From the NCBI RefSeq assembly GCF_010725055.1, contig NZ_BJKB01000001.1:1-64000 (forward strand): a DNA stretch of 64,000 bases, given 5' to 3'. The position numbers were made by a program, and so were the translations under genes. Source of the DNA: Gelidibacter japonicus (GTDB taxonomy: Bacteria; Bacteroidota; Bacteroidia; Flavobacteriales; Flavobacteriaceae). The notes under the pieces are model-generated. The model was given only the letters and a program-made list of their open reading frames with translations, did not search any database and was not told the DNA's origin. Position 1 is the stretch's first letter. Each line of letters opens with the position of its first letter. Positions 4,724 to 53,311 of the stretch are shown in pieces.

Positions 4724-5527
4724 ATGGAAAAAAATTTACAAATTTTTATGGATTCGGGCCTATTGGATAGCTATATCTTAGGCACCACAACTCCTGATGA
4801 AAATTTAGAAGTTGAAAGCTATATTGCTGAATTTCCTGAAGTAAAAGCTGAGTACGAGAGGCTTCAAGATAATTTGGAAATCTTAGCGAAGGCAAATACG
4901 GTAGAAGCTCCAAAGTATATATTAGACGCTATTATTAAAGAAATTTCAGAGGAGACTCCGGTTATTCAAATGAATGCATCCCCAGTACATCATCGTACTC
5001 CATGGTATAGTATTGCGGCAAGTATAGCAGCATTTATTTTTGCTGGTACAGCTTTCTTACTCTATGAGCAAAATATATCGCTAAATCACGAAAACCAAGT
5101 GGTTGTTGAAGAGATCTTTGACCTTAGAAGCGATATTGAAGACAATAACAAAAAACTCGAGAACGTCATGCTTCAATTTATGAAATTGAACAACCCGGAA
5201 ACGGAAAAGTATGTTTTAAGAGGAAATTCAAGAGCTAAAGACCTTAAAACTGTGGCATATATCAACGCTGTAGATAAAACATCGATGATTGATGTGGTTT
5301 CATTACCAAAGCTTCCTGAGAATCAGACTTATCAAATTTGGGCCGAATTGCAAGATAGAATGGTCAATCTCGGTATTTTAGATGAATCAGAGCGTAAGCT
5401 CAAGACCATTCCATATATGGAAGATGCACTCGGATTGAGCATTACGATTGAGCAGAAAGTGGGTTCCAAGATCAACAAGGCACATGCTGAAAACTCTGTA
5501 GCGGAAATCACACTAAAAAACAATTAG
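4724..5527 (+). CDS. Membrane anti-sigma factor with RskA-type C-terminal domain
   Basis: 267 aa. The N-terminal 75 residues form a short zinc-less anti-sigma-like helical domain (DSYILGTTTPDENLEVESYI), followed by one transmembrane helix (about 92-112, WYSIAASIAAFIFAGTAFLL), a coiled-coil stretch (about 115-150) and a periplasmic RskA-like domain (about 160-267, with LPENQTYQIWAEL and the MVNLGILD segment). In RskA/SigK systems the cytoplasmic domain binds the sigma factor and proteolysis releases it. Adjacency to the sigma gene supports the same role here. The signal sensed is not visible. Confidence 0.85.
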   Translation: MEKNLQIFMDSGLLDSYILGTTTPDENLEVESYIAEFPEVKAEYERLQDNLEILAKANTVEAPKYILDAIIKEISEETPVIQMNASPVHHRTPWYSIAASIAAFIFAGTAFLLYEQNISLNHENQVVVEEIFDLRSDIEDNNKKLENVMLQFMKLNNPETEKYVLRGNSRAKDLKTVAYINAVDKTSMIDVVSLPKLPENQTYQIWAELQDRMVNLGILDESERKLKTIPYMEDALGLSITIEQKVGSKINKAHAENSVAEITLKNN

Positions 5528-5574
5528 TTTTATTTAAAGATCAAAATAACAATCACTCATTGTTTTATTGAAAA

Positions 5575-5614
5575 TAATAAAGAGGCTGCCTAAAAAGGTG
5601 GCCTCCGTTATTTT
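5575..5614 (+). terminator. Terminator of the sigma/anti-sigma operon
   Basis: The hairpin GAGGC(5582-5586)...GCCTC(5601-5605) is extended by flanking AATAA/TTATT and followed by TTATTTT. It lies 48 nt after the anti-sigma stop. Confidence 0.65.
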
Positions 5615-5877
5615 ATAATAATCAGGTATAAAGGACATATTGTACGGCGATCATGTACCAGTTGCTTTTTCATAGTGTGGAATTAAAAACAGAATTGAGA
5701 TGTAGTTGGATTGGAACACCAATCAATTCGTCAAAATCAACCCAATTCAATGACTTCCCTGTCAGCTTTTTCAATGTTTTTTGAACAGTACAATGTGAGC
5801 TAAATCAAAAAATAAGCTTCTTATAAAGTTATCGCAGATGTAGTCATCAGATAACTGAAAATATTCCAAAAAACCTG
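5615..5877. other. Intergenic stretch with no gene seen
   Basis: Between the anti-sigma terminator and the promoter of the next gene (the whole gap is 373 bases). No open frame with plausible composition, no tRNA-like fold and no repeat shared with other parts of the window was found. Confidence 0.6.
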
Positions 5878-7761: not shown

Positions 7762-8976
7762 GTGAACATCAGTTTTAAAAAATTAGGACCTGGTTTATTG
7801 TTTGCCGGAGCTGCTATTGGTGTTTCCCATTTAGTGCAATCTACTCGAGCTGGTGCCGATTTTGGTTATGGTCTTATTTGGGCCCTTTTGTTGGTCCATA
7901 TTTTTAAATACCCATTTTTTCAATTTGCTCCAAGATATGCTTTGGCAACTGGGGAAAGCCTATTGGATGGCTATAAGAAAATGGGCAAGGGAGTCTTATT
8001 TGCTTATTTCATCCTCACATTTACGACCATGTTTACCATCCAAACTACGGTAACCATTGTTACGGCAGGCATTGCTTCCACTCTTTTTGGAAATCTGATT
8101 TCAACAGAAATATGGGCCGTTATTATTCTTTCAATTTGTGCTCTTATTTTGATCAAAGGCAAATACAGCTTTCTTGATCAAATAATGAAAGTCATTGTCA
8201 TTACATTAACTATAAGCACCTTAATTGCTGTTGTTCTTGCTCTAAACTCAAACCCACATGCGCTTTCATTCAAACAGATACTACCAGAGAACACTTTGGA
8301 AATTAGTTTTTTGATTGCATTCATGGGTTGGATGCCTGCACCTTTGGACGTTTCAGTATGGCAATCACTTTGGGCTTTGGAAAAACGTAAAGTGAACAAC
8401 ACTTATAACGTCAAATCTTCGCTTTTCGATTTTAATGTAGGCTATTTGGCAACCATTATTATTGGCCTGGGATTTATGGCTCTTGGTGCCTTGGTAATGT
8501 TTCAAAGCGGCTCCACATTTAGTGATAAAGCTGGCGAATTTTCCAATCAGTTAATCTCAATGTACACCAAAAGCTTAGGAAACTGGGCTTATCTTATTAT
8601 CGGCATTGCCGCATTTACGACCATGTTTAGCACCACATTGACCACATTGGACGCCTCGCCAAGAACAATGGCCAAAACAACTGAATTGCTTTTTGGCCAT
8701 TCTTCAAAACGGAATTACCTGTTATGGATCGGTATTTTAATTGCCGGAACTGTTTCTATTTACTTCTTTTTGGGTTCGGAAATGGGTTTGCTCATAAAAG
8801 TCGCCACTATCATATCTTTTTTGACAGCCCCGTTTTATGCCATTATCAATTATAAGCTCATCAGTAGTAAACATACTCCTGTTGAATGGCGTCCTTCCCG
8901 AAAAATACATGTATTAAGTTGGTTGGGAATTCTCTTTTTAATTGGATTTAGCCTTTGGTATCTGACCACTCTATAA
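7762..8976 (+). CDS. Nramp-family (SLC11-like) membrane transporter, divergent
   Basis: 404 aa with about 11 hydrophobic segments. It starts at GTG, 3 nt after the sigma factor stop. The N-terminal GPGLLFAGAAIG and overall layout are those of Nramp proteins, H+-coupled divalent-metal importers. However, the TM1 metal motif DPGN is replaced by an IGVSH segment (about 19-23), and the TM6 motif MPH by WMPAPLD (190-196). The canonical Mn/Fe ligands are therefore missing, so the cargo may not be a transition metal; calling it MntH would be unsafe. Cotranscription with an ECF sigma factor is likely from spacing. Confidence 0.75.
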   Translation: MNISFKKLGPGLLFAGAAIGVSHLVQSTRAGADFGYGLIWALLLVHIFKYPFFQFAPRYALATGESLLDGYKKMGKGVLFAYFILTFTTMFTIQTTVTIVTAGIASTLFGNLISTEIWAVIILSICALILIKGKYSFLDQIMKVIVITLTISTLIAVVLALNSNPHALSFKQILPENTLEISFLIAFMGWMPAPLDVSVWQSLWALEKRKVNNTYNVKSSLFDFNVGYLATIIIGLGFMALGALVMFQSGSTFSDKAGEFSNQLISMYTKSLGNWAYLIIGIAAFTTMFSTTLTTLDASPRTMAKTTELLFGHSSKRNYLLWIGILIAGTVSIYFFLGSEMGLLIKVATIISFLTAPFYAIINYKLISSKHTPVEWRPSRKIHVLSWLGILFLIGFSLWYLTTL

Positions 8977-17536: not shown

Positions 17537-17569
17537 AAACCTGACAGGTTTTTGAAACCTGTCAGGTTT
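17537..17569. repeat. AACCTG/CAGGTT palindrome (family P, copy 1)
   Basis: Two perfect 15-bp arms (17537-17551 and 17555-17569) separated by TTG. Each arm is itself nearly palindromic (AACCTG.CAGGTT). It lies between convergent msrA and the methyltransferase gene and may end both transcripts. Related copies are at 20654, 22139, 22178, 22705, 22886 and 25573; 47955 shares only the arms. Confidence 0.85.
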
Positions 17570-19354: not shown

Positions 19355-19362
19355 TATTTTTG
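19355..19362 (+). promoter_or_regulatory. -7 promoter element TATTTTTG of the kynurenine locus
   Basis: Exact TAnnTTTG box. Its last three bases (TTG, 19360-19362) are also the first possible start codon of the kynU frame, so that codon cannot be in the mRNA; this moves the kynU start to 19387. Confidence 0.6.
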
Positions 19363-19386
19363 TGTGAAACCCAAAATAAATTCACC

Positions 19387-20655
19387 TTGTCAAACCATCA
19401 ATTAGGATTAGAATATGCCAAACACCAAGATCAAAATGATCTTTTGGCATCTTATAGAAGTCGTTTCCATATTCCAAAGGACAATCAGGGCAAGGAGTTA
19501 ATTTATATGACTGGAAATTCACTTGGACTCCAACCAAAATCAACGAAAGACTATATCCATCAAGAATTGGAAGACTGGGCCAATTTAGGTGTTGAAGGCC
19601 ATACCAATGCCAAACATCCTTGGCTTCATTACCACGAATTCTTGACAGAAAATATGGCAAATGTTGTTGGCGCGAAACCCATCGAAGTGGTGGTCATGAA
19701 TACCCTGACAGCCAACCTCCATTTGATGATGGTCTCCTTTTATAAACCGACTTCAAAACGCTACAAAATTCTGATTGAGGCCGATGCTTTTCCATCAGAC
19801 AAATACGCTGTGGAATCGCAATTGCGCCATCATGGTTTCGATCCGAAGGACGGATTGGTGCTTTGGAAAGCAAGAAAAGGTGAGGAATTGGTTAATTATG
19901 ACGATTTAGAAGCTATTTTAGAAGCGCAAGGACACGAAATAGCCTTGGTGATGATTGGCGGTGTCAACTATTATACTGGGCAGTTTTTTGATCTGAAACG
20001 CATTACTCAACTTGGACATCAATACGGATGTATGGTCGGTTTCGACTGTGCCCATGGGGCTGGAAATGTCAAATTGGATCTTCACGATTCTGGAGCCGAT
20101 TTTGCAGTTTGGTGCACCTATAAATATTTGAATTCCGGACCAGGTAGTTTAGGCGGCTGTTTTGTACATGAACGCCATGCGTACAATAAAAACCTCAATC
20201 GGTTTGCAGGTTGGTGGAGCCACAATAAAGAAACACGTTTTAAAATGCGCGACGAATTTGACCAACTCCCGGGCGCTGAAGGTTGGCAATTGAGCAATCC
20301 TCCGATCTTATCAATGGCAGCAATCAGAGCATCATTAGATATGTTTGCCGAAGTAGGCATGGAAAAACTCACCGAAAAATCAAAACATCTTACAAGCTAT
20401 TTTGAATTTTTAATCAACGATCTGAATAATAAAGACATCAAAGTCATCACCCCTTCAAATCCTGACGAACGCGGATGCCAACTCTCCATTCAGGTGAAAA
20501 ATGCCGATAAGACCTTACATCACCAATTAACCAAAGCTGGAATTATCAGTGATTGGCGCGAGCCAGATGTCATACGATGCGCACCTGTACCATTATATAA
20601 TTCGTATGAGGATGTTTATAAATTGGTGGAGAAGTTAAAAGAAGTACTAACCTAA
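19387..20655 (+). CDS. kynU: Kynureninase KynU
   Basis: 422 aa. It cleaves kynurenine or 3-hydroxykynurenine to (3-hydroxy)anthranilate plus alanine with PLP. Seen: TGNSLGLQPKS, HTNAKHPWLHYHEF, the PLP-site FDCAHGAGN and WCTYKYLNSGPG with the Schiff-base Lys, and the C-terminal SDWREPDVIR that recognises the substrate carboxylate. Start: the longest frame begins at TTG 19360, which lies in the promoter -7 box; the next start codon, TTG 19387, gives MSNHQLGLEYAK, the usual N-terminus. First gene of the catabolic cluster; kmo follows after 74 nt. Confidence 0.92.
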   Translation: MSNHQLGLEYAKHQDQNDLLASYRSRFHIPKDNQGKELIYMTGNSLGLQPKSTKDYIHQELEDWANLGVEGHTNAKHPWLHYHEFLTENMANVVGAKPIEVVVMNTLTANLHLMMVSFYKPTSKRYKILIEADAFPSDKYAVESQLRHHGFDPKDGLVLWKARKGEELVNYDDLEAILEAQGHEIALVMIGGVNYYTGQFFDLKRITQLGHQYGCMVGFDCAHGAGNVKLDLHDSGADFAVWCTYKYLNSGPGSLGGCFVHERHAYNKNLNRFAGWWSHNKETRFKMRDEFDQLPGAEGWQLSNPPILSMAAIRASLDMFAEVGMEKLTEKSKHLTSYFEFLINDLNNKDIKVITPSNPDERGCQLSIQVKNADKTLHHQLTKAGIISDWREPDVIRCAPVPLYNSYEDVYKLVEKLKEVLT

Positions 20656-20697
20656 CCTGCAAGGTTTCCATTCCGAAGCATCGGGACTTGTAAGTTT
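20654..20697. repeat. Degenerate family P palindrome (copy 2)
   Basis: An intact AACCTGCAAGGTTT arm at 20654-20667 (overlapping the kynU stop) and a decayed partner ACTTGTAAGTTT at 20686-20697. Confidence 0.55.
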
Positions 20698-20706
20698 AAT
20701 AATAAG

Positions 20707-20727
20707 ATTCTCCCTTCGCGGGAAGTA
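20707..20727. repeat. CCTTCG-loop palindrome (family E, copy 1)
   Basis: GATTCTCCC-TTCGC-GGGAAGT, a variant of the GATTCCTGCCTTCGCAGGAAT palindrome found at 22247, 22965 and 24588. The loop is shared while the stem bases differ. It ends 3 nt before the kmo ATG. Confidence 0.6.
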
Positions 20728-20729
20728 GC

Positions 20730-22133
20730 ATGAATAAACAACAAAATATACTCATTATCGGTGCAGGTCTGTGTGGAAGTTTACTCGCTTTACGCTTGGG
20801 ACAACGTGGATATAACGTCTCGCTTTACGAGATGCGTCCGGATATACGTACAGCCAATATTAGCGCAGGACGTTCCATCAATTTAGCCCTTTCCGATCGT
20901 GGCATTAAGGCTATGAAACTGGCCGGTATTGAAGATAAAGTCCGAGAATTATGCATTCCCATGAATGGCCGCATGTTGCATGACATTGAAGGCAATATGG
21001 TCATGGCGCCTTACAGCGGACGAGAACATGAATATATCAACTCCATCTCCCGAGGACTCTTAAACGGGTTGTTGTTGGACGAAGCCGAAAAGCACGACAA
21101 CGTCAAAATTCATTTTAACAGAAAATGTAAATCAGTCGATTTTGAAAAAACAAAGGCCCTATTCAAAGATTATGAATCGAATACCGAATTTGTAGAGGAT
21201 GCCGATGTCATAATAGCTACAGATGGCGCTGGCTCAGCCTTACGTAAAAGCTACTTTTTAGGCAAAAAGTTTTTGTTCAGCTTTTCTCAGGAATGGTTGT
21301 CACATGGCTATAAAGAATTAAGTTTTCTACCCACAAAAAATGGAGGTTTTAAAACTTATAAAAACGCCTTGCATATTTGGGGGCGCGATAGTTTTATGCT
21401 GATTGCCTTACCAAATTTGGATGGCAGTTTTACAGTCACCCTATTTTTAAGTTATGAGGATGGCGAATATAATTTTGGCAATCTAACCACTGAAGAAAAG
21501 GTCGTTGAATTTTTCCAAAAATATTTTAAAGACGCTTTGGAGTTAATGCCAAATCTCATTGAAGACTTTTTCACCAATCCCACGTCACCATTAGGAACCG
21601 TAAAGTGTTCCCCTTGGCATTATAAAGGCAATACCTTATTGATGGGCGATGCCGCACACGCCATTGTGCCATTTTACGGACAAGGGATGAACGCCTCGTT
21701 TGAAGATGTCACCGTATTTGACAAGGTTCTGGATGAAGGTCATCAGGACTGGGAAACCATATTCAAAACTTATGAGAAGAATCGTAAAAGAGACACCGAT
21801 GCCATTGCAGATTTAGCCATCGACAATTTTCATGAAATGAAAGGCCATGTAAACAATGCTATTTTCAGGGAAAAGCGTAACTTGGAAATGGCATTGGAAA
21901 AAACTTTCCCAAATGACTATTCCTCAAAATATTCATTGGTTACCTTTAATGAGGAAATCAGCTATTATGAAGCCATGTTGAGAGGCCGGGCGCAAGACAA
22001 GGCAATTCTGAATATGTTGGCAGATAAAGAACTTGACCTCAACGACGATTTAAAAACGAATTTGGAAAAAGTAAAAGCTGCCACAGAAGAAATTTTGGAT
22101 GAGGATCGGGTAGCGAAGGAGTTTAAACATTAG
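20730..22133 (+). CDS. kmo: Kynurenine 3-monooxygenase KMO
   Basis: 467 aa FAD enzyme that hydroxylates L-kynurenine to 3-hydroxykynurenine with NADPH and O2. FAD motifs: [19 protein letters not shown] at the N-terminus, [12 protein letters not shown] (DG motif) near 165, and [19 protein letters not shown] (GD motif) near 310. [13 protein letters not shown] and GRMLHD are KMO-typical substrate-side segments. The C-terminus lacks the long hydrophobic anchor of the mitochondrial enzymes, so it is probably soluble or peripheral. Its start codon directly follows a family E palindrome and two family P palindromes follow its stop. Confidence 0.93.
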
Positions 22134-22138
22134 ATAGC

Positions 22139-22170
22139 AACCTGCAAGGTTTTAAAAACCTTGTAGGTTT
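22139..22170. repeat. Family P palindrome (copy 3)
   Basis: AACCTGCAAGGTTTT directly followed by an inverted partner (AAAAACCTTGTAGGTTT), one mismatch, 6 nt after the kmo stop. Confidence 0.75.
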
Positions 22171-22177
22171 AGACCGT

Positions 22178-22209
22178 AACCTGACAGGTTTTAAAAACCT
22201 GTCAGGTTT
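22178..22209. repeat. Family P palindrome (copy 4)
   Basis: AACCTGACAGGTTTT and its exact inverted partner. The arm sequence equals that of the copy at 17537. Ends 16 nt before the RidA-family ATG. Confidence 0.8.
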
Positions 22210-22225
22210 AATAAAAGACAAATTT

Positions 22226-22675
22226 ATGAGTAAAGATAACAATGAGGTTCCTGCCTTCGCAGGAACTGGAGTAAAACCAAGAGGCACCTATCCGCTCACC
22301 AGACGCGCTGGCGATTTTATTTATGCTTCAGGAACCAGTTCCCGTCGTGCCGACAATACCATTGCTGGTGTTGACATTCTTGACAATATGGGTACTAAAC
22401 ATTTAAACGCCGAAGTACAGACCCGTGAGGTCATTAAAAACATTGAAAAAAATCTCGCTAAGGAAGGTGCCACGCTTAAAGACGTGGTGGATGTCACCTC
22501 CTTTTTGGTGAACATGAACGATTTTGCGGGCTATAATAAGGCTTACGCAGAATTTTTTGATCAGGAAACCGGACCGACAAGAACCACTGTAGCTGTGCAT
22601 CAATTGCCGCATCCAGATTTGGTGGTAGAGATTAAGGTCGTAGCATTCCTACGGAAACAGGAATCTCATGATTAA
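22226..22675 (+). CDS. RidA-family deaminase, probably 2-aminomuconate deaminase
   Basis: 149 aa. The core (about 17-140) is a YjgF/YER057c/UK114 domain: [38 protein letters not shown], and [25 protein letters not shown], with the conserved Arg and the acidic end of the active site. In bacterial aminophenol and tryptophan pathways a RidA-like protein (AmnD type) deaminates 2-aminomuconate to 2-oxo-3-hexenedioate; placement between kmo and a semialdehyde dehydrogenase supports that. Odd: codons 8-14 (VPAFAGT) and the tail FLRKQESHD are the translations of two family E palindromes, so both protein ends appear repeat-derived. A generic enamine/imine deaminase role is the alternative. Confidence 0.85.
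22247..22266. repeat. Family E palindrome (copy 2) inside the RidA coding start
   Basis: A perfect 8-bp stem GTTCCTGC / GCAGGAAC around the loop CTTC, read in frame as VPAFAGT. Confidence 0.85.
22645..22664. repeat. Family E palindrome, reverse orientation (copy 5), at the RidA coding end
   Basis: ATTCCT(acggaaac)AGGAAT followed by CTCATGA; it matches the reverse complement of the family with a decayed inner stem. Read in frame it gives AFLRKQESH just before the stop. Confidence 0.7.
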
Positions 22676-22704
22676 AGATGGTATTTTGAAATAGAAGACT
22701 AATC

Positions 22705-22769
22705 AAACCTCTCAGGTTTTTACTTGTCCGCCAAAGCGTCAGTGTAGGAGGAAAACCTGTGAGGTTTTA
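22705..22769. repeat. Family P palindrome with an interrupting segment (copy 5)
   Basis: Arms AAACCTCTCAGGTTTTT (22705-22721) and an inverted partner (22751-22769) are separated by about 30 nt of unrelated sequence containing TCCGCC. It lies in the 262-nt gap between the RidA-family gene and the dehydrogenase; no gene is seen in this gap. Confidence 0.65.
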
Positions 22770-22885
22770 GGGCCCCTAAAACACTCGTGATCCCGATAAT
22801 TATTGAAACGTGACAAAAAAAGAAAAACAATACGAAAATCTTGTCTACCCATCCACTGAACGAGGAGGAACAAGATTTTAGAATC

Positions 22886-22918
22886 AGACCTTTCAGGTTT
22901 CCCAAACCTGAAAGGTCT
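22886..22918. repeat. Family P palindrome (copy 6)
   Basis: Perfect 15-bp arms (22886-22900, 22904-22918) around CCC. The sequence is AGACCTTTCAGGTTT, a variant of the family arm. Ends 19 nt before the dehydrogenase start. Confidence 0.8.
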
Positions 22919-22937
22919 CAAAAACAATCGTGAATTC

Positions 22938-24416
22938 GTGGTAAACAAGGCAATACAAGACGAGATTCCTGCCTTCGCAGGAATTAGGAACTACATCAAC
23001 GGAGAATATATCAATCCAGTCCAAGACAATTGGCTAGACAACTATTGTCCAGCCAATGGGGAAGTATACGGACAGATCCCAAACTCCACTAAGGAAGATG
23101 TAGAGAACGCCTATATTGCCGCAAAATCAGCGTTTCTTATTTGGTCACAGACCACTTTGGAAGAGCGCAGTAGAATTCTCGTTAAAATTTCAGAACTATT
23201 AGAAAATAATTTACAACGTTTTGCTGAAGCAGAAAGTAAAGATAACGGAAAGCCAATTTCTTTGGCAATACAAGTAGATATCCCAAGAGCGGCCAGTAAT
23301 TTTCGCTTTTTCGGAAATGCCATTACGCAATTTGCCAGTGAAAGTCACGAAAGTGTCGGCCAAGATGCCATTAACTTTACGTTGCGTCAACCAATCGGTG
23401 TAGTTGGCTGTATATCACCTTGGAACCTTCCACTCTATCTGTTTACCTGGAAAATCGCCCCTGCCATAGCCTCCGGTAACTGTGTGGTTGCAAAACCAAG
23501 TGAAATCACACCAATGACGGCTTACTTACTTGGCGATATCTGTACAGAGGCCGGCTTACCACGAGGCGTTCTTAATATCGTTCACGGACTGGGCTCAACC
23601 GCAGGACAGGCCATTATTGAACATCCAGAAATTAAAGCGATTAGTTTTACTGGAGGTACTGCAACCGGCGCCCATATCGCAAAAATTGCCGCTCCACTTT
23701 TCAAAAAGCTATCTTTGGAATTGGGTGGGAAAAATCCAAACATCATTTTTGCTGACTGTGATTATGACGATATGCTTAATACTACGGTACGATCTTCATT
23801 TTCCAATCAAGGACAAATTTGTTTGTGCGGGAGCAGGATATTTGTGGAAGCCTCTATTTATGAAAAATTTAAAAAGGATTTTATTGTTAAAGTAAAAGCA
23901 CTTAAAGTTGGACATCCATCAGAAGCAGAAACCAATATCGGTGCTTTGGTTTCAAAAACACATTTGGAAAAAGTGATGGAGTATATTGAAACTGCCAAAA
24001 CGGAAAACGGAACCATTCTTTGCGGCGGCAATAAAGTGGTGGTCAAAAATTATGAACATGGTTATTATTTAGAGCCGACGGTTATTGAAGTTGCATCGAA
24101 TGACTGCCGAGTGAATCAAGAAGAAATTTTCGGTCCTGTAGTGACTATCATGCCTTTTGAAAGTGAAGATGAAGTATTGGAAATGGCCAACAACGTAAAA
24201 TACGGTTTGTCAGCAACCCTATGGACCAACGATTTAAAGCGTACCATGCGAATGAGCAACCAATTACAAGCTGGAATTATTTGGGTGAACACTTGGATGA
24301 TGCGCGATTTGCGAACGCCATTTGGAGGCATAAAAGCTTCTGGCGTGGGTCGTGAGGGCGGTTTCGAAGCGCTACGGTTTTTTACGGAAGCAAAGAATGT
24401 GTGTATAAAATATTAG
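22938..24416 (+). CDS. Aldehyde dehydrogenase, probably 2-aminomuconate-6-semialdehyde dehydrogenase
   Basis: 492 aa, NAD+-dependent ALDH superfamily. Seen: SPWNLPLYLFTWKIAPA, the catalytic Glu in LELGGKNP, the catalytic Cys in SNQGQICLCGSR, and EEIFGPV. Its place between a RidA deaminase and HAO/ACMSD genes makes oxidation of 2-aminomuconate semialdehyde to 2-aminomuconate (AmnC/NbzC role) the best guess. The start is uncertain: the only in-frame start codon before the conserved NYINGEYINP is GTG 22938. Residues 9-15 (EIPAFAG) are the translation of a family E palindrome, so the first 17 residues are probably repeat-derived. No ATG is available. Confidence 0.88.
   Translation: MVNKAIQDEIPAFAGIRNYINGEYINPVQDNWLDNYCPANGEVYGQIPNSTKEDVENAYIAAKSAFLIWSQTTLEERSRILVKISELLENNLQRFAEAESKDNGKPISLAIQVDIPRAASNFRFFGNAITQFASESHESVGQDAINFTLRQPIGVVGCISPWNLPLYLFTWKIAPAIASGNCVVAKPSEITPMTAYLLGDICTEAGLPRGVLNIVHGLGSTAGQAIIEHPEIKAISFTGGTATGAHIAKIAAPLFKKLSLELGGKNPNIIFADCDYDDMLNTTVRSSFSNQGQICLCGSRIFVEASIYEKFKKDFIVKVKALKVGHPSEAETNIGALVSKTHLEKVMEYIETAKTENGTILCGGNKVVVKNYEHGYYLEPTVIEVASNDCRVNQEEIFGPVVTIMPFESEDEVLEMANNVKYGLSATLWTNDLKRTMRMSNQLQAGIIWVNTWMMRDLRTPFGGIKASGVGREGGFEALRFFTEAKNVCIKY
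22965..22984. repeat. Family E palindrome (copy 3) inside the dehydrogenase coding start
   Basis: Perfect 8-bp stem ATTCCTGC / GCAGGAAT with loop CTTC, read in frame as IPAFAG near residue 10. Confidence 0.85.
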
Positions 24417-24458
24417 AAAAGAGAAAAGAAAAGAGAAAAGAAAAGAGAGAAGAGAAAA
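24415..24458. repeat. 44-nt pure purine tract
   Basis: Uninterrupted A/G made of GAAAAGA-like units, beginning within the dehydrogenase stop codon. It sits 12 nt before the pyrimidine-rich heptamer repeat. Confidence 0.85.
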
Positions 24459-24470
24459 TAGATAACCATG

Positions 24471-24564
24471 TCTTTATTCTTTATTCTTTATTCTTTATTC
24501 TTTATTCTTTATTCTTTATTCTTTATTCTTTATTCTTTATTCTTTATTCTTTATTCTTTATTCT
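24471..24564. repeat. Heptamer tandem repeat, 13.4 exact copies of TCTTTAT
   Basis: Thirteen perfect TCTTTAT units plus TCT with no mismatch over 94 nt. It lies in the gap between the aldehyde dehydrogenase and SDR genes. A perfect array of this length is expected to gain and lose units by strand slippage. It ends 49 nt before the SDR ATG. Confidence 0.95.
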
Positions 24565-24587
24565 AATATAAATTAACCTTAAAAAGA

Positions 24588-24605
24588 TCCCTGCCTTCGC
24601 AGGGA
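24588..24605. repeat. Family E palindrome (copy 4)
   Basis: TCCCTGC / GCAGGGA stem with loop CTTC, ending 7 nt before the SDR ATG. Confidence 0.8.
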
Positions 24606-24612
24606 GTATATT

Positions 24613-25395
24613 ATGGATTTAAAACTAAACAACAAATACGCATTGGTTTGCGGAAGTACAGCGGGAATAGGAAAGGCAACGGCCATATCATTAGCTTCGG
24701 AAGGTGCACATGTCACTTTGGTGGCGAGAAATGAGGAAAAACTGAAACAGGTAATTGCTGAACTCCCCAATTCAAAAGATCACAGTTATATTATGGCGGA
24801 TTTTTCAAACCCTGAAGAACTGCAACACAAGGTTTCTGAGTTTATCAAAACACACCATGGCTTCCATATTTTGGTCAACAATACTGGCGGACCAGCAGCA
24901 GGTCCCGTTTTTTCGGCAAAGCTCGACGAATTTGATAAGGCGTTTACCCAACATTTAAAATGCAATCATATTTTGGCGCAAACTGTTGTTCCGTTTATGA
25001 AGGATGAAGAATATGGCCGCATCATCAATATCATATCCACATCCGTAAAGCAACCTTTGGATGGGCTTGGCGTGAGCAATACCATTCGTGGTGCCGTTGG
25101 CAATTGGAGCAAAACATTAGCCAATGAACTCGGTCAATATGGGATCACCGTCAACAATGTACTTCCAGGAGCAACAGCAACGGATCGACTGACGGAAATA
25201 ATTAAAGATAAATCAGCTAAAACTGGCCGTAGCGAAGAAGAAGCTGCCAATGCGATGAAAAGTTCAGTCCCTGCAAAACGATTTGCAAGACCAGAAGAGC
25301 TGGCTTATGCGGTGACTTTTTTGGCAAGTGAATGCGCCAGTTATATCAATGGCATCAATCTGCCTGTTGATGGCGGACGAACAAAATCATTATAG
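24613..25395 (+). CDS. Short-chain dehydrogenase/reductase (SDR)
   Basis: 260 aa. Classical SDR features: the cofactor loop CGSTAGIGKATA (about 14-25), VARNEEKL after beta-2 suggesting NADP(H), NNTGGP at the NNAG position (NTGG is unusual but occurs in this subgroup), and the C-terminal PVDGGRTKSL. The active-site segment has IISTSVKQPLDGLGVSNTIRGAVGNWSKTL: the catalytic Tyr of YxxxK is not visible, with SNTIRGA in that place. Its gene sits inside the kynurenine cluster but no established step of this route needs an SDR, so the substrate is open. Confidence 0.8.
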   Translation: MDLKLNNKYALVCGSTAGIGKATAISLASEGAHVTLVARNEEKLKQVIAELPNSKDHSYIMADFSNPEELQHKVSEFIKTHHGFHILVNNTGGPAAGPVFSAKLDEFDKAFTQHLKCNHILAQTVVPFMKDEEYGRIINIISTSVKQPLDGLGVSNTIRGAVGNWSKTLANELGQYGITVNNVLPGATATDRLTEIIKDKSAKTGRSEEEAANAMKSSVPAKRFARPEELAYAVTFLASECASYINGINLPVDGGRTKSL

Positions 25396-25572
25396 TAAAG
25401 AATGAATTTGTAAATAAGAACCGAAAGGAAGACTTTTTGTTCTGCAGTTTTATACTTAATTTTAAGTGCGAAATCTCGCGTTAAGGATGGAGGTCCCGAT
25501 AGCTATCTGGATTGGAGCTCCTCTCACTAAAGTATCCGGAGAGAACAACTGCCGACAGCCTGACCTATCCCT

Positions 25573-25599
25573 CCTGCAAGGTTTCAAAAACCTTGCAGG
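25573..25599. repeat. Family P palindrome (copy 7)
   Basis: CCTGCAAGGTTT and its exact inverted partner around CAA, 32 nt before the true start of the dioxygenase gene. The frame through it is open to 25512, so a naive gene call would extend the protein into the repeat. Confidence 0.8.
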
Positions 25600-25631
25600 T
25601 ATTGAAAATTAACGCAAAAAAAACAGAAACC

Positions 25632-26162
25632 ATGAACTTAGTATCTCCCATAAATTTCAAGGAATGGATTGAAGAAAATCGTCATTTATTAAAACCTCCT
25701 GTTGGAAATAAAGTGGTTTGGAAGGACGGCGATTTCATCGTGATGGTGGTTGGTGGCCCTAACAATCGGAAAGATTATCATTACAACGAAACCCCTGAGT
25801 TTTTCTATCAGGTGGAAGGGGACATCGTCTTGAAAATCATCGACAACGGCACACCAAAGGATGTACACATCAAGGAAGGTGATATTTATCTGTTACCTCC
25901 AAAAGTACCGCACTCCCCGCAACGTGGCGCAAATACCGTCGGTTTGGTCATAGAATACAAGCGCCCAGAAGGGATGCGTGATGCACTGCTGTGGTTTTGT
26001 GAAAACTGTACCACGAAATTATATGAAGAAGATTTTACCGTTGAAAATATAGAAACAGATATGCCTAAAATTTTCGATAAATATTACAACGATAAAGACA
26101 AAAGAAAATGTCCCAATTGTGGTGAATTGATGGAACCACCCAAAAAGGTACAAATAGATTGA
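25632..26162 (+). CDS. nbaC: 3-hydroxyanthranilate 3,4-dioxygenase
   Basis: 176 aa from ATG 25632 (MNLVSPINFKEWIEENR), matching the bacterial family length; a longer open frame from 25512 runs through a palindrome and is rejected. It opens the ring of 3-hydroxyanthranilate to 2-amino-3-carboxymuconate semialdehyde using Fe(II). Cupin iron ligands are His50, Glu56 and His94 (YHYNETPEFFYQVEGD; KVPHSPQR), with Arg98 for substrate. The C-terminal rubredoxin-like CxxC pairs (C123/C126, C160/C163) of the bacterial enzyme are present. ACMSD follows after a hairpin. Confidence 0.93.
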   Translation: MNLVSPINFKEWIEENRHLLKPPVGNKVVWKDGDFIVMVVGGPNNRKDYHYNETPEFFYQVEGDIVLKIIDNGTPKDVHIKEGDIYLLPPKVPHSPQRGANTVGLVIEYKRPEGMRDALLWFCENCTTKLYEEDFTVENIETDMPKIFDKYYNDKDKRKCPNCGELMEPPKKVQID

Positions 26163-53230: not shown

Positions 53231-53289
53231 TCTACCGAAGTATAAACTTATTTTATGTTTTAAGATTAACTTTCGATGCACTTAAAGGA

Positions 53290-53307
53290 TTCCTGCTTGC
53301 GCAGGAA
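53290..53307. repeat. Family E-like palindrome (copy 6)
   Basis: TTCCTGC / GCAGGAA stem with loop TTGC, directly after the nqrF stop. Related to the copies in the kynurenine locus but with a different loop. Confidence 0.65.
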
Positions 53308-53311
53308 ATGG

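Follow-up and report, generated by a model that had tools for sequence, protein, structure and literature searches.

The CGTC-1 class of repetitive extragenic palindromes (REPs) is defined, in the main text of Di Nocera et al. (2013, PMC3733652), by a stem of 8 bp that closes a 4-nt loop, by a tag (CGTC or TGTC) and by a CCA tail. The same text assigns the Neisseria repeat dRS3 and the Rickettsia conorii palindromic element RPE-6 to this class and counts Bacteroidetes among the phyla with CGTC repeats. It describes CGTC-1 REPs as lying near gene 3' ends, at variable distance from the downstream genes, some of them in frame, and as having no dedicated transposase. REPs of Escherichia coli cause ribosomes to stall when they lie within 15 nt of a stop codon, according to the main text of PMC12306157. 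Here we describe a palindrome that recurs at the edges of consecutive genes of a kynurenine locus in a 64,000-nt stretch of Gelidibacter japonicus (positions 1 to 64,000 of contig NZ_BJKB01000001.1, hereafter the window) and elsewhere in the genome of this marine bacterium. We lean, with modest confidence, towards regarding it as a selfish, non-autonomous dispersed repeat, a tagless variant of CGTC-1, whose copies at gene edges have been kept as hairpins in the messenger RNA (mRNA).

Dispersed copies, gene edges and known relatives

Within the window, ATTCCTGCNNNNGCAGGAAT was matched with at most three mismatches at five places (22247, 22645, 22965, 24587 and 53289), against 0.28 expected, and none of 100 shuffles reached this count. 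The window's own genome (G000; 4.67 Mb in 61 contigs) holds 135 such places at up to two mismatches and 80 at up to one; the reversed control gave 12 and 0. At least one match was present in 63 of the 79 genomes compared, the window genome included. Counts above 20 were confined to the window genome, to G002, G003, G004, G006 and G008 (five of the eight further genomes of the genus) and to G014, G026 and G059, from three other genera. Tandem arrays of the palindrome are seen in L133 at 4908-5789 (C1:86907-87788 of G000) and in L153 at 7936-8484 (C13:85935-86483), with spacings of 135/153 and 57/101 nt.

Positions were scored in a sample that holds part of all copies, namely the window and 40 genome stretches around the repeat and Y1 transposase matches listed (521,619 bases). 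Open reading frames (ORFs) were called by a simple longest-ORF rule, loop type was assigned by a simple score, and a stem-pairing filter reduced 91 sites to 87. Fifteen of these lie inside ORFs of at least 80 amino acids, some of them doubtful, and 72 are intergenic. Eighteen of the 72 lie 2-12 nt before a start codon, where random intergenic placement predicts 3.3 (binomial 3e-9), and 12 of the 18 are at 5-6 nt. Nineteen follow a stop codon at 2-12 nt, where 3.1 would be expected (binomial 1e-10); nine of these are at exactly 4 nt, 11 at 4-5 nt and all 19 at 2-9 nt. The loop on the sense strand was of CTTC type in 18/18 start-adjacent copies and of GAAG type in 19/19 stop-adjacent copies. The first-pass annotation, made from the window alone, had remarked on regular placement near the start codons of one operon and proposed to look for a gene-end bias among copies elsewhere. 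That bias is present and the start-codon placement stands; its restriction to one operon does not, since the placement is genome-wide, orientation-locked and mirrored by a class after stop codons. The kynurenine operon as a special case is thus rejected.

The related genome G008 gave 12 start-adjacent and 13 stop-adjacent copies of 32 (1.5 expected each), oriented as above in 11/12 and 13/13, although it is not independent of G000 because some sites are probably orthologous. G003 had one and three of seven (0.3 expected each). Pooling G014, G059 and G026 (n = 47) gave seven start-adjacent copies for an expectation of 2.3 and 15 stop-adjacent ones for an expectation of 2.1, with orientation kept in 7/7 and 14/15. 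The orientation rule is therefore common to other genera; a sharp peak before starts, in contrast, stands out clearly in Gelidibacter alone.

A second family of hairpins (AACCTGACAGGTTTT..AAAACCTGTCAGGTT and variants; AACCT..AGGTT) occupies gaps of the window at 22139-22208, 17537-17569, 22886-22918 and 25573-25600. Its 18 copies in the G000 sample, admittedly small numbers, include none at 2-12 nt before a start codon and four at 2-12 nt after a stop codon; a stricter form of the pattern matched only two places in the genome. Among other hairpins in tandem gaps of the same sample, 2/38 were start-adjacent (within 12 nt) and 7/38 stop-adjacent. The 2/38 and 0/18 values reject a start lock as a general trait of this genome's hairpins.

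Like CGTC-1 REPs as described in PMC3733652, the Gelidibacter palindrome combines a similar stem and loop with dispersal in tens of copies or more, closeness to 3' ends, some in-frame copies and the lack of a flanking Y1 transposase. The eighth, outer A-T pair is present in 63 of the 87 G000 copies, which had been preselected for a near-perfect 7-bp stem, with the loop length set by the search. Unlike those REPs, it has a sharp start-codon class and is without the tag and the tail. A CGTC or TGTC tag was found in 1/87 copies of G000, 0/36 of G008 and 0/8 of G003 (15/19 in G026, 12/20 in G014 and 4/16 in G059). The CCA tail, read as TGGA on the other strand, was seen in 0/87 copies of G000, where GAGA stands in 46/87; TGGA occurs in 10/19 copies of G026 and 7/20 of G014. 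Because stem, loop and dispersal agree and tag and tail do not, the palindrome is, on these sequence features, a REP-like variant of the CGTC-1 type and not a strict member.

The likeness to Rickettsia palindromic elements that had been proposed for the window is apt, as CGTC-1 is equated with R. conorii RPE-6 in the main text of PMC3733652. As with RPE-6 and RPE-4, copies stand in frame inside conserved genes, and the insert in RidA is absent from short orthologues; in contrast, in-frame copies are a minority in Gelidibacter (the 15 of 87 above) and are often at gene ends. The dRS3 repeat, which shares the CGTC-1 assignment, is described in PMC3733652 as lying mostly in large clusters in Neisseria, whereas the Gelidibacter copies are dispersed with few arrays. 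REPINs of the GTAG type, mobilised by REP-associated tyrosine transposases (RAYTs), differ in that no GTAG was seen in the flank consensus here and no copy beside Y1 genes. The search for a RAYT gene suggested by the first-pass annotation did yield seven Y1_Tnp matches in the genome, Y1_Tnp being the only transposase family searched. The palindrome was found in none of L163-L167, and its nearest copies are about 2.8 and 2.4 kb away in L141 and L142, so that flanking of these genes by the palindrome is rejected. The seven Y1 transposase matches of L126-L132 are in part RAYT-like by inspection, and those in L126 and L132 adjoin repeated hairpins of their own. Two Rfam matches scored far below the gathering scores and are put down to chance.

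Hairpins and gap contents at the kmo and SDR starts

The kynurenine locus (19360-26162) contains, in order, genes for kynureninase, kmo, a RidA/Rid-family protein, aldehyde dehydrogenase (ALDH), short-chain dehydrogenase (SDR) and 3-hydroxyanthranilate dioxygenase. The name kmo, for kynurenine monooxygenase, rests on the Pfam match FAD_binding_3 and on context, the product being an FAD-dependent monooxygenase. The closest named relatives of the locus are in Gelidibacter gilvus and G. pelagius. The palindrome lies, as had been noted, at or just before four gene starts (20707, 22247, 22965 and 24588). The kmo copy (20707..20724, plus strand) is a degraded start-class hairpin (ATTCTCCCTTCGCGGGAA) that ends 5 nt upstream of the kmo ATG (20730) and falls outside the list of matches with at most three mismatches; at the corresponding site L046 has an intact copy and L048 a nearly intact one. 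The SDR copy (24588..24605, plus strand; TCCCTGC-CTTC-GCAGGGA) is fully paired and stands 7 nt before the ATG at 24613.

The stem of the SDR hairpin covaries among orthologues. Over 23 rows, 92.5% of the cells are paired and six of the seven pairs have changed on both sides; neither value was reached in 500 shuffles, and slid control structures gave 38-56% pairing.

Other loci show this junction both empty and filled. An empty state, with 6-8 nt from the ALDH stop to the SDR start, is found in L091, L113 and L124. L070, L080, L111, L118 and L120 hold 75-76 nt instead (L118 and L120 in diverged form), a module in which a reverse hairpin right after the stop is joined by an AT-rich spacer to a forward hairpin that ends 5-9 nt before the ATG. 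Other species carry different inverted repeats at this junction. In the window's gap (24416-24612), the stop is followed by a purine-rich tandem repeat and the start preceded by a pyrimidine-rich one, (ATTCTTT)n; comparable pairs of purine and pyrimidine repeats are seen in some other species. Upstream of kmo, L056 is empty and the genes overlap, while its 93%-identical relative L055 holds 253 nt.

Such filled and empty gaps are what the closest rival explanation expects. It holds that the repeat inserts anywhere, neutrally or selfishly, and nothing more: in compact operons only gaps of a few bases would tolerate repeats, the survivors would thus abut both the stop and the start, and orientation would come from the mode of insertion, for example if two copies went in together with their outer ends towards the genes. 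We consider this a serious possibility without favouring it. In G014, G059 and G026, opposed pairs within 150 nt mostly turn the same ends outward (7 vs. 2), which also agrees with it. However, most edge copies in Gelidibacter are single and stand at one side of spacers of about 50-400 nt, and only one opposed pair within 150 nt occurs in the G000 sample. At SDR, several species retain the hairpin on the start side and have other repeats on the stop side, and the stem of this hairpin covaries. On present sequences, the pair model accounts for the 75-76 nt SDR module of the five loci and for few of the Gelidibacter copies.

We also counted any stem of at least 6 bp ending within 16 nt of the ATG, after excluding loci with a gap below 30 nt (24 for SDR, 36 for kmo). 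Such stems were found in 26 of 51 filled SDR loci (2.2 expected) and 13 of 41 filled kmo loci (2.1 expected). The comparison suggests replacement of the palindrome by other hairpin families at the SDR start, and gives a weak indication of it at the kmo start.

Copies read as codons

The RidA/Rid-family gene (22226..22675, plus strand) has palindrome-derived residues at both ends, and Pfam PF01042 covers only residues 18-140. Near its start, a palindrome (GTTCCTGCCTTCGCAGGAAC; 22247..22266, plus strand) reads VPAFAGT on translation and lies within an in-frame insertion of 33 nt, or 11 codons. By homology the insertion occupies 22238..22270 of the window (plus strand), between codon 4 and the conserved V-x-P-R-G. 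The filled orthologues L054 and L056 were compared with the short, empty orthologues L113 and L123. L123 reads ATG-AGT-AAC-AAA-GTA-ACA, whereas L054 reads ATG-AGT-AAC-AAA-[33 nt with the palindrome]-GTA-ACA. This pair, differing by 33 nt, identifies the VPAFAGT peptide as an in-frame insertion of 11 codons. A new upstream start as the source of the extension is rejected, for the original ATG-AGT-AAC/GAT-AAA is kept and the 33 nt follow it.

At the other end of the gene, a copy in opposite orientation (22645..22664, minus strand) forms the last codons in frame (FLRKQES); the C-terminal FLRKQESHD is confined to 3/81 loci, namely the window, L046 and L047. Other repeats separate it from the copy in ALDH (22965..22984, plus strand), a perfect palindrome that reads EIPAFAG. 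Since no ATG lies between this hairpin and the core of the protein in the window, the hairpin is inside the first codons of ALDH and not upstream of the gene. EIPAFAG without a later Met was found in 8/80 anchored loci, including L046, L047, L048, L050, L063, L067 and L077; L049 has a variant peptide, and in L092 and L096 the hairpin stands ahead of a Met. All three readings, VPAFAGT, EIPAFAG in what had been called the dehydrogenase, and the reverse copy as the end of RidA, had been proposed at first pass and were reproduced, and the residues are absent from palindrome-free orthologues.

The RidA insertion is borne by 42 of the 80 loci on the kmo-protein tree, five of which (L048, L050, L058, L099 and L116) look modified or decayed on inspection. 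Its history on this tree takes 13 changes, at least eight of them forced by well-supported branches, compared with 26.9 in shuffles. Loss has occurred, as remnants are left in L089 (MNEGTK) and L070 (TTGTN) and L068 is without the insertion inside a bearing clade. By this comparison the RidA peptide is dispensable, because some lineages have lost it, two of them with scars. In L048 and L050 the insertion itself is enlarged (VPATLPGGQAGAGT and IPASLPTGQAGVAT); a second element seems to have entered the first.

Further in-frame copies are found in a heavy-metal P-type ATPase (L162; a G008 ORF has the same flanking residues), a homocysteine S-methyltransferase-family protein (L153; G059 has an ORF of the same length with a like end) and a GATase-family protein (L156). 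Together with RidA and ALDH, these could be taken to mean that the encoded peptides are themselves selected for a benefit to the protein. We find this hardly credible. The RidA residues drift (PTSAGT, PVSKGT, TTSKAT) and are lost in some lineages, and residues 1-14 and 146-149 fall below pLDDT 50 in a structural model that is itself modest (mean pLDDT 69.7).

The codons of the RidA insertion offer a second view of the stem. In 37 rows that bear the element (of 83 distinct rows scored, 38 passed and one near-duplicate was dropped), the entropy at fourfold sites was 0.20, 0.40 and 0.53 in the stem, and 1.24, 1.46 and 1.73 in the loop or outside, with a mean of 1.46 in the core of the gene. All seven pairs of the 7-bp stem are intact in 21 of the 37 rows, and L060 has one compensating pair.

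Possible roles beside start and stop codons

The repeat type is known; what seems new is the class on the start side, with its lock onto start codons. Neither PMC3733652 nor PMC12306157 uses the term 'start codon' in its main text. No start-codon-adjacent class of such repeats was found in the published literature, which is weak evidence, as only open-access papers were covered.

If the edge copies are kept as mRNA hairpins, as we tend to believe, copies would enter short gaps between operon genes and in some cases the opening or closing codons of a gene, and those in frame would survive there as peptides such as VPAFAGT, EIPAFAG and FLRKQES. Edge copies would then be retained since the transcribed hairpin does something, both classes presumably acting in mRNA. 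In the stop class, the hairpin with a GAAG-type sense loop may act as described for E. coli REPs. In the start class, the hairpin with a CTTC-type sense loop and its stem end mostly 5-6 nt from the ATG may keep the start open or tune initiation.

The window has one intergenic stop-class copy (53289..53308, plus strand), whose 18-base core lies 4 nt past the stop of a minus-strand gene of 435 amino acids, in reverse orientation in the sense of that gene. Gelidibacter and E. coli have in common hairpins that adjoin stop codons; for Gelidibacter the likeness is one of position. As stop-adjacent E. coli REPs stall ribosomes in the account of PMC12306157, a function for the Gelidibacter stop class is suggested by analogy. 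The positions directly past stop codons would also suit transcription terminators or attenuators. This explanation is very improbable: in the stop-class copies listed (GGAATCTC and similar) the stem is not followed by a run of T, start-class copies stand directly ahead of the ATG, and the two classes present different sense strands. The E. coli repeats belong to a different family.

For the start class, predicted pairing in 13 start-hairpin genes was 0.61-0.81 in the stem region (-25 to -6) and 0.30 at the ATG, compared with 0.55 at the ATG in 200 of 386 other genes. An A at -3 is present in 10 of the 13 and in 46% of others. Starts in Flavobacterium johnsoniae are normally unstructured from -20 to +20, and an A at -3 aids initiation there, according to the parts of PMC6847099 consulted. 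On this basis the hairpin on the start side would be an oddity that is tolerated or else a structural module holding the start open.

Several points weigh against a function of the edge copies. The 23 SDR rows were chosen by eye for a recognisable hairpin, and gene conversion among copies could hold stems alike and so imitate part of the SDR covariation. In RidA, 3 of 47 fourfold sites of the core are as quiet as the stem, all in the first core codons; constraint on the start region may thus explain part of the invariance of the stem, and the RidA signal is suggestive only. The RidA insertion has been lost several times. The control genes of the pairing prediction may include wrong starts, and by analogy with F. 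johnsoniae the start-side hairpin might simply hinder translation. Start-adjacent copies are few and looser in the three other genera. Interior copies in tandem gaps of the G000 sample are also mostly one-way (15 forward and 3 reverse, arrays included, with a further 17 interior copies in other gaps); the orientation bias is therefore not confined to gene edges, as neutral insertion would have it. The simple ORF caller missed the ALDH start, so that the window copy at 22966 was scored as intergenic. Finally, by inspection the window's own repeat type accounts for 17 of the 26 SDR hairpins and 9 of the 13 kmo hairpins, leaving nine and four unrelated ones, the kmo figure being little above chance.

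Bacteroidota initiate translation without Shine-Dalgarno pairing. A bolder proposal is that selfish hairpins have been repeatedly recruited in this phylum as start-codon modules, the stem 5-6 nt before the ATG taking the position of the Shine-Dalgarno duplex, keeping the start open and being replaceable by unrelated palindromes. We think this unlikely and offer it as speculation.

Two called ORFs, at L221 13965-15032 and L195 4606-6063, begin at an ATG just before the hairpin, and their true starts are probably downstream. Copies of such repeats may therefore mislead the annotation of start codons. The filled and empty RidA orthologues provide a polarised case in which a mobile palindrome turned into coding sequence and persisted in several genera, with several losses. 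Initiation is expected to be impeded by structure close to the start, on the part of PMC6847099 consulted, and a family of hairpins locked in one orientation a few nt ahead of start codons is an unexpected exception. The palindrome thus bears on how start codons are chosen in Bacteroidota, where Shine-Dalgarno pairing is not used.

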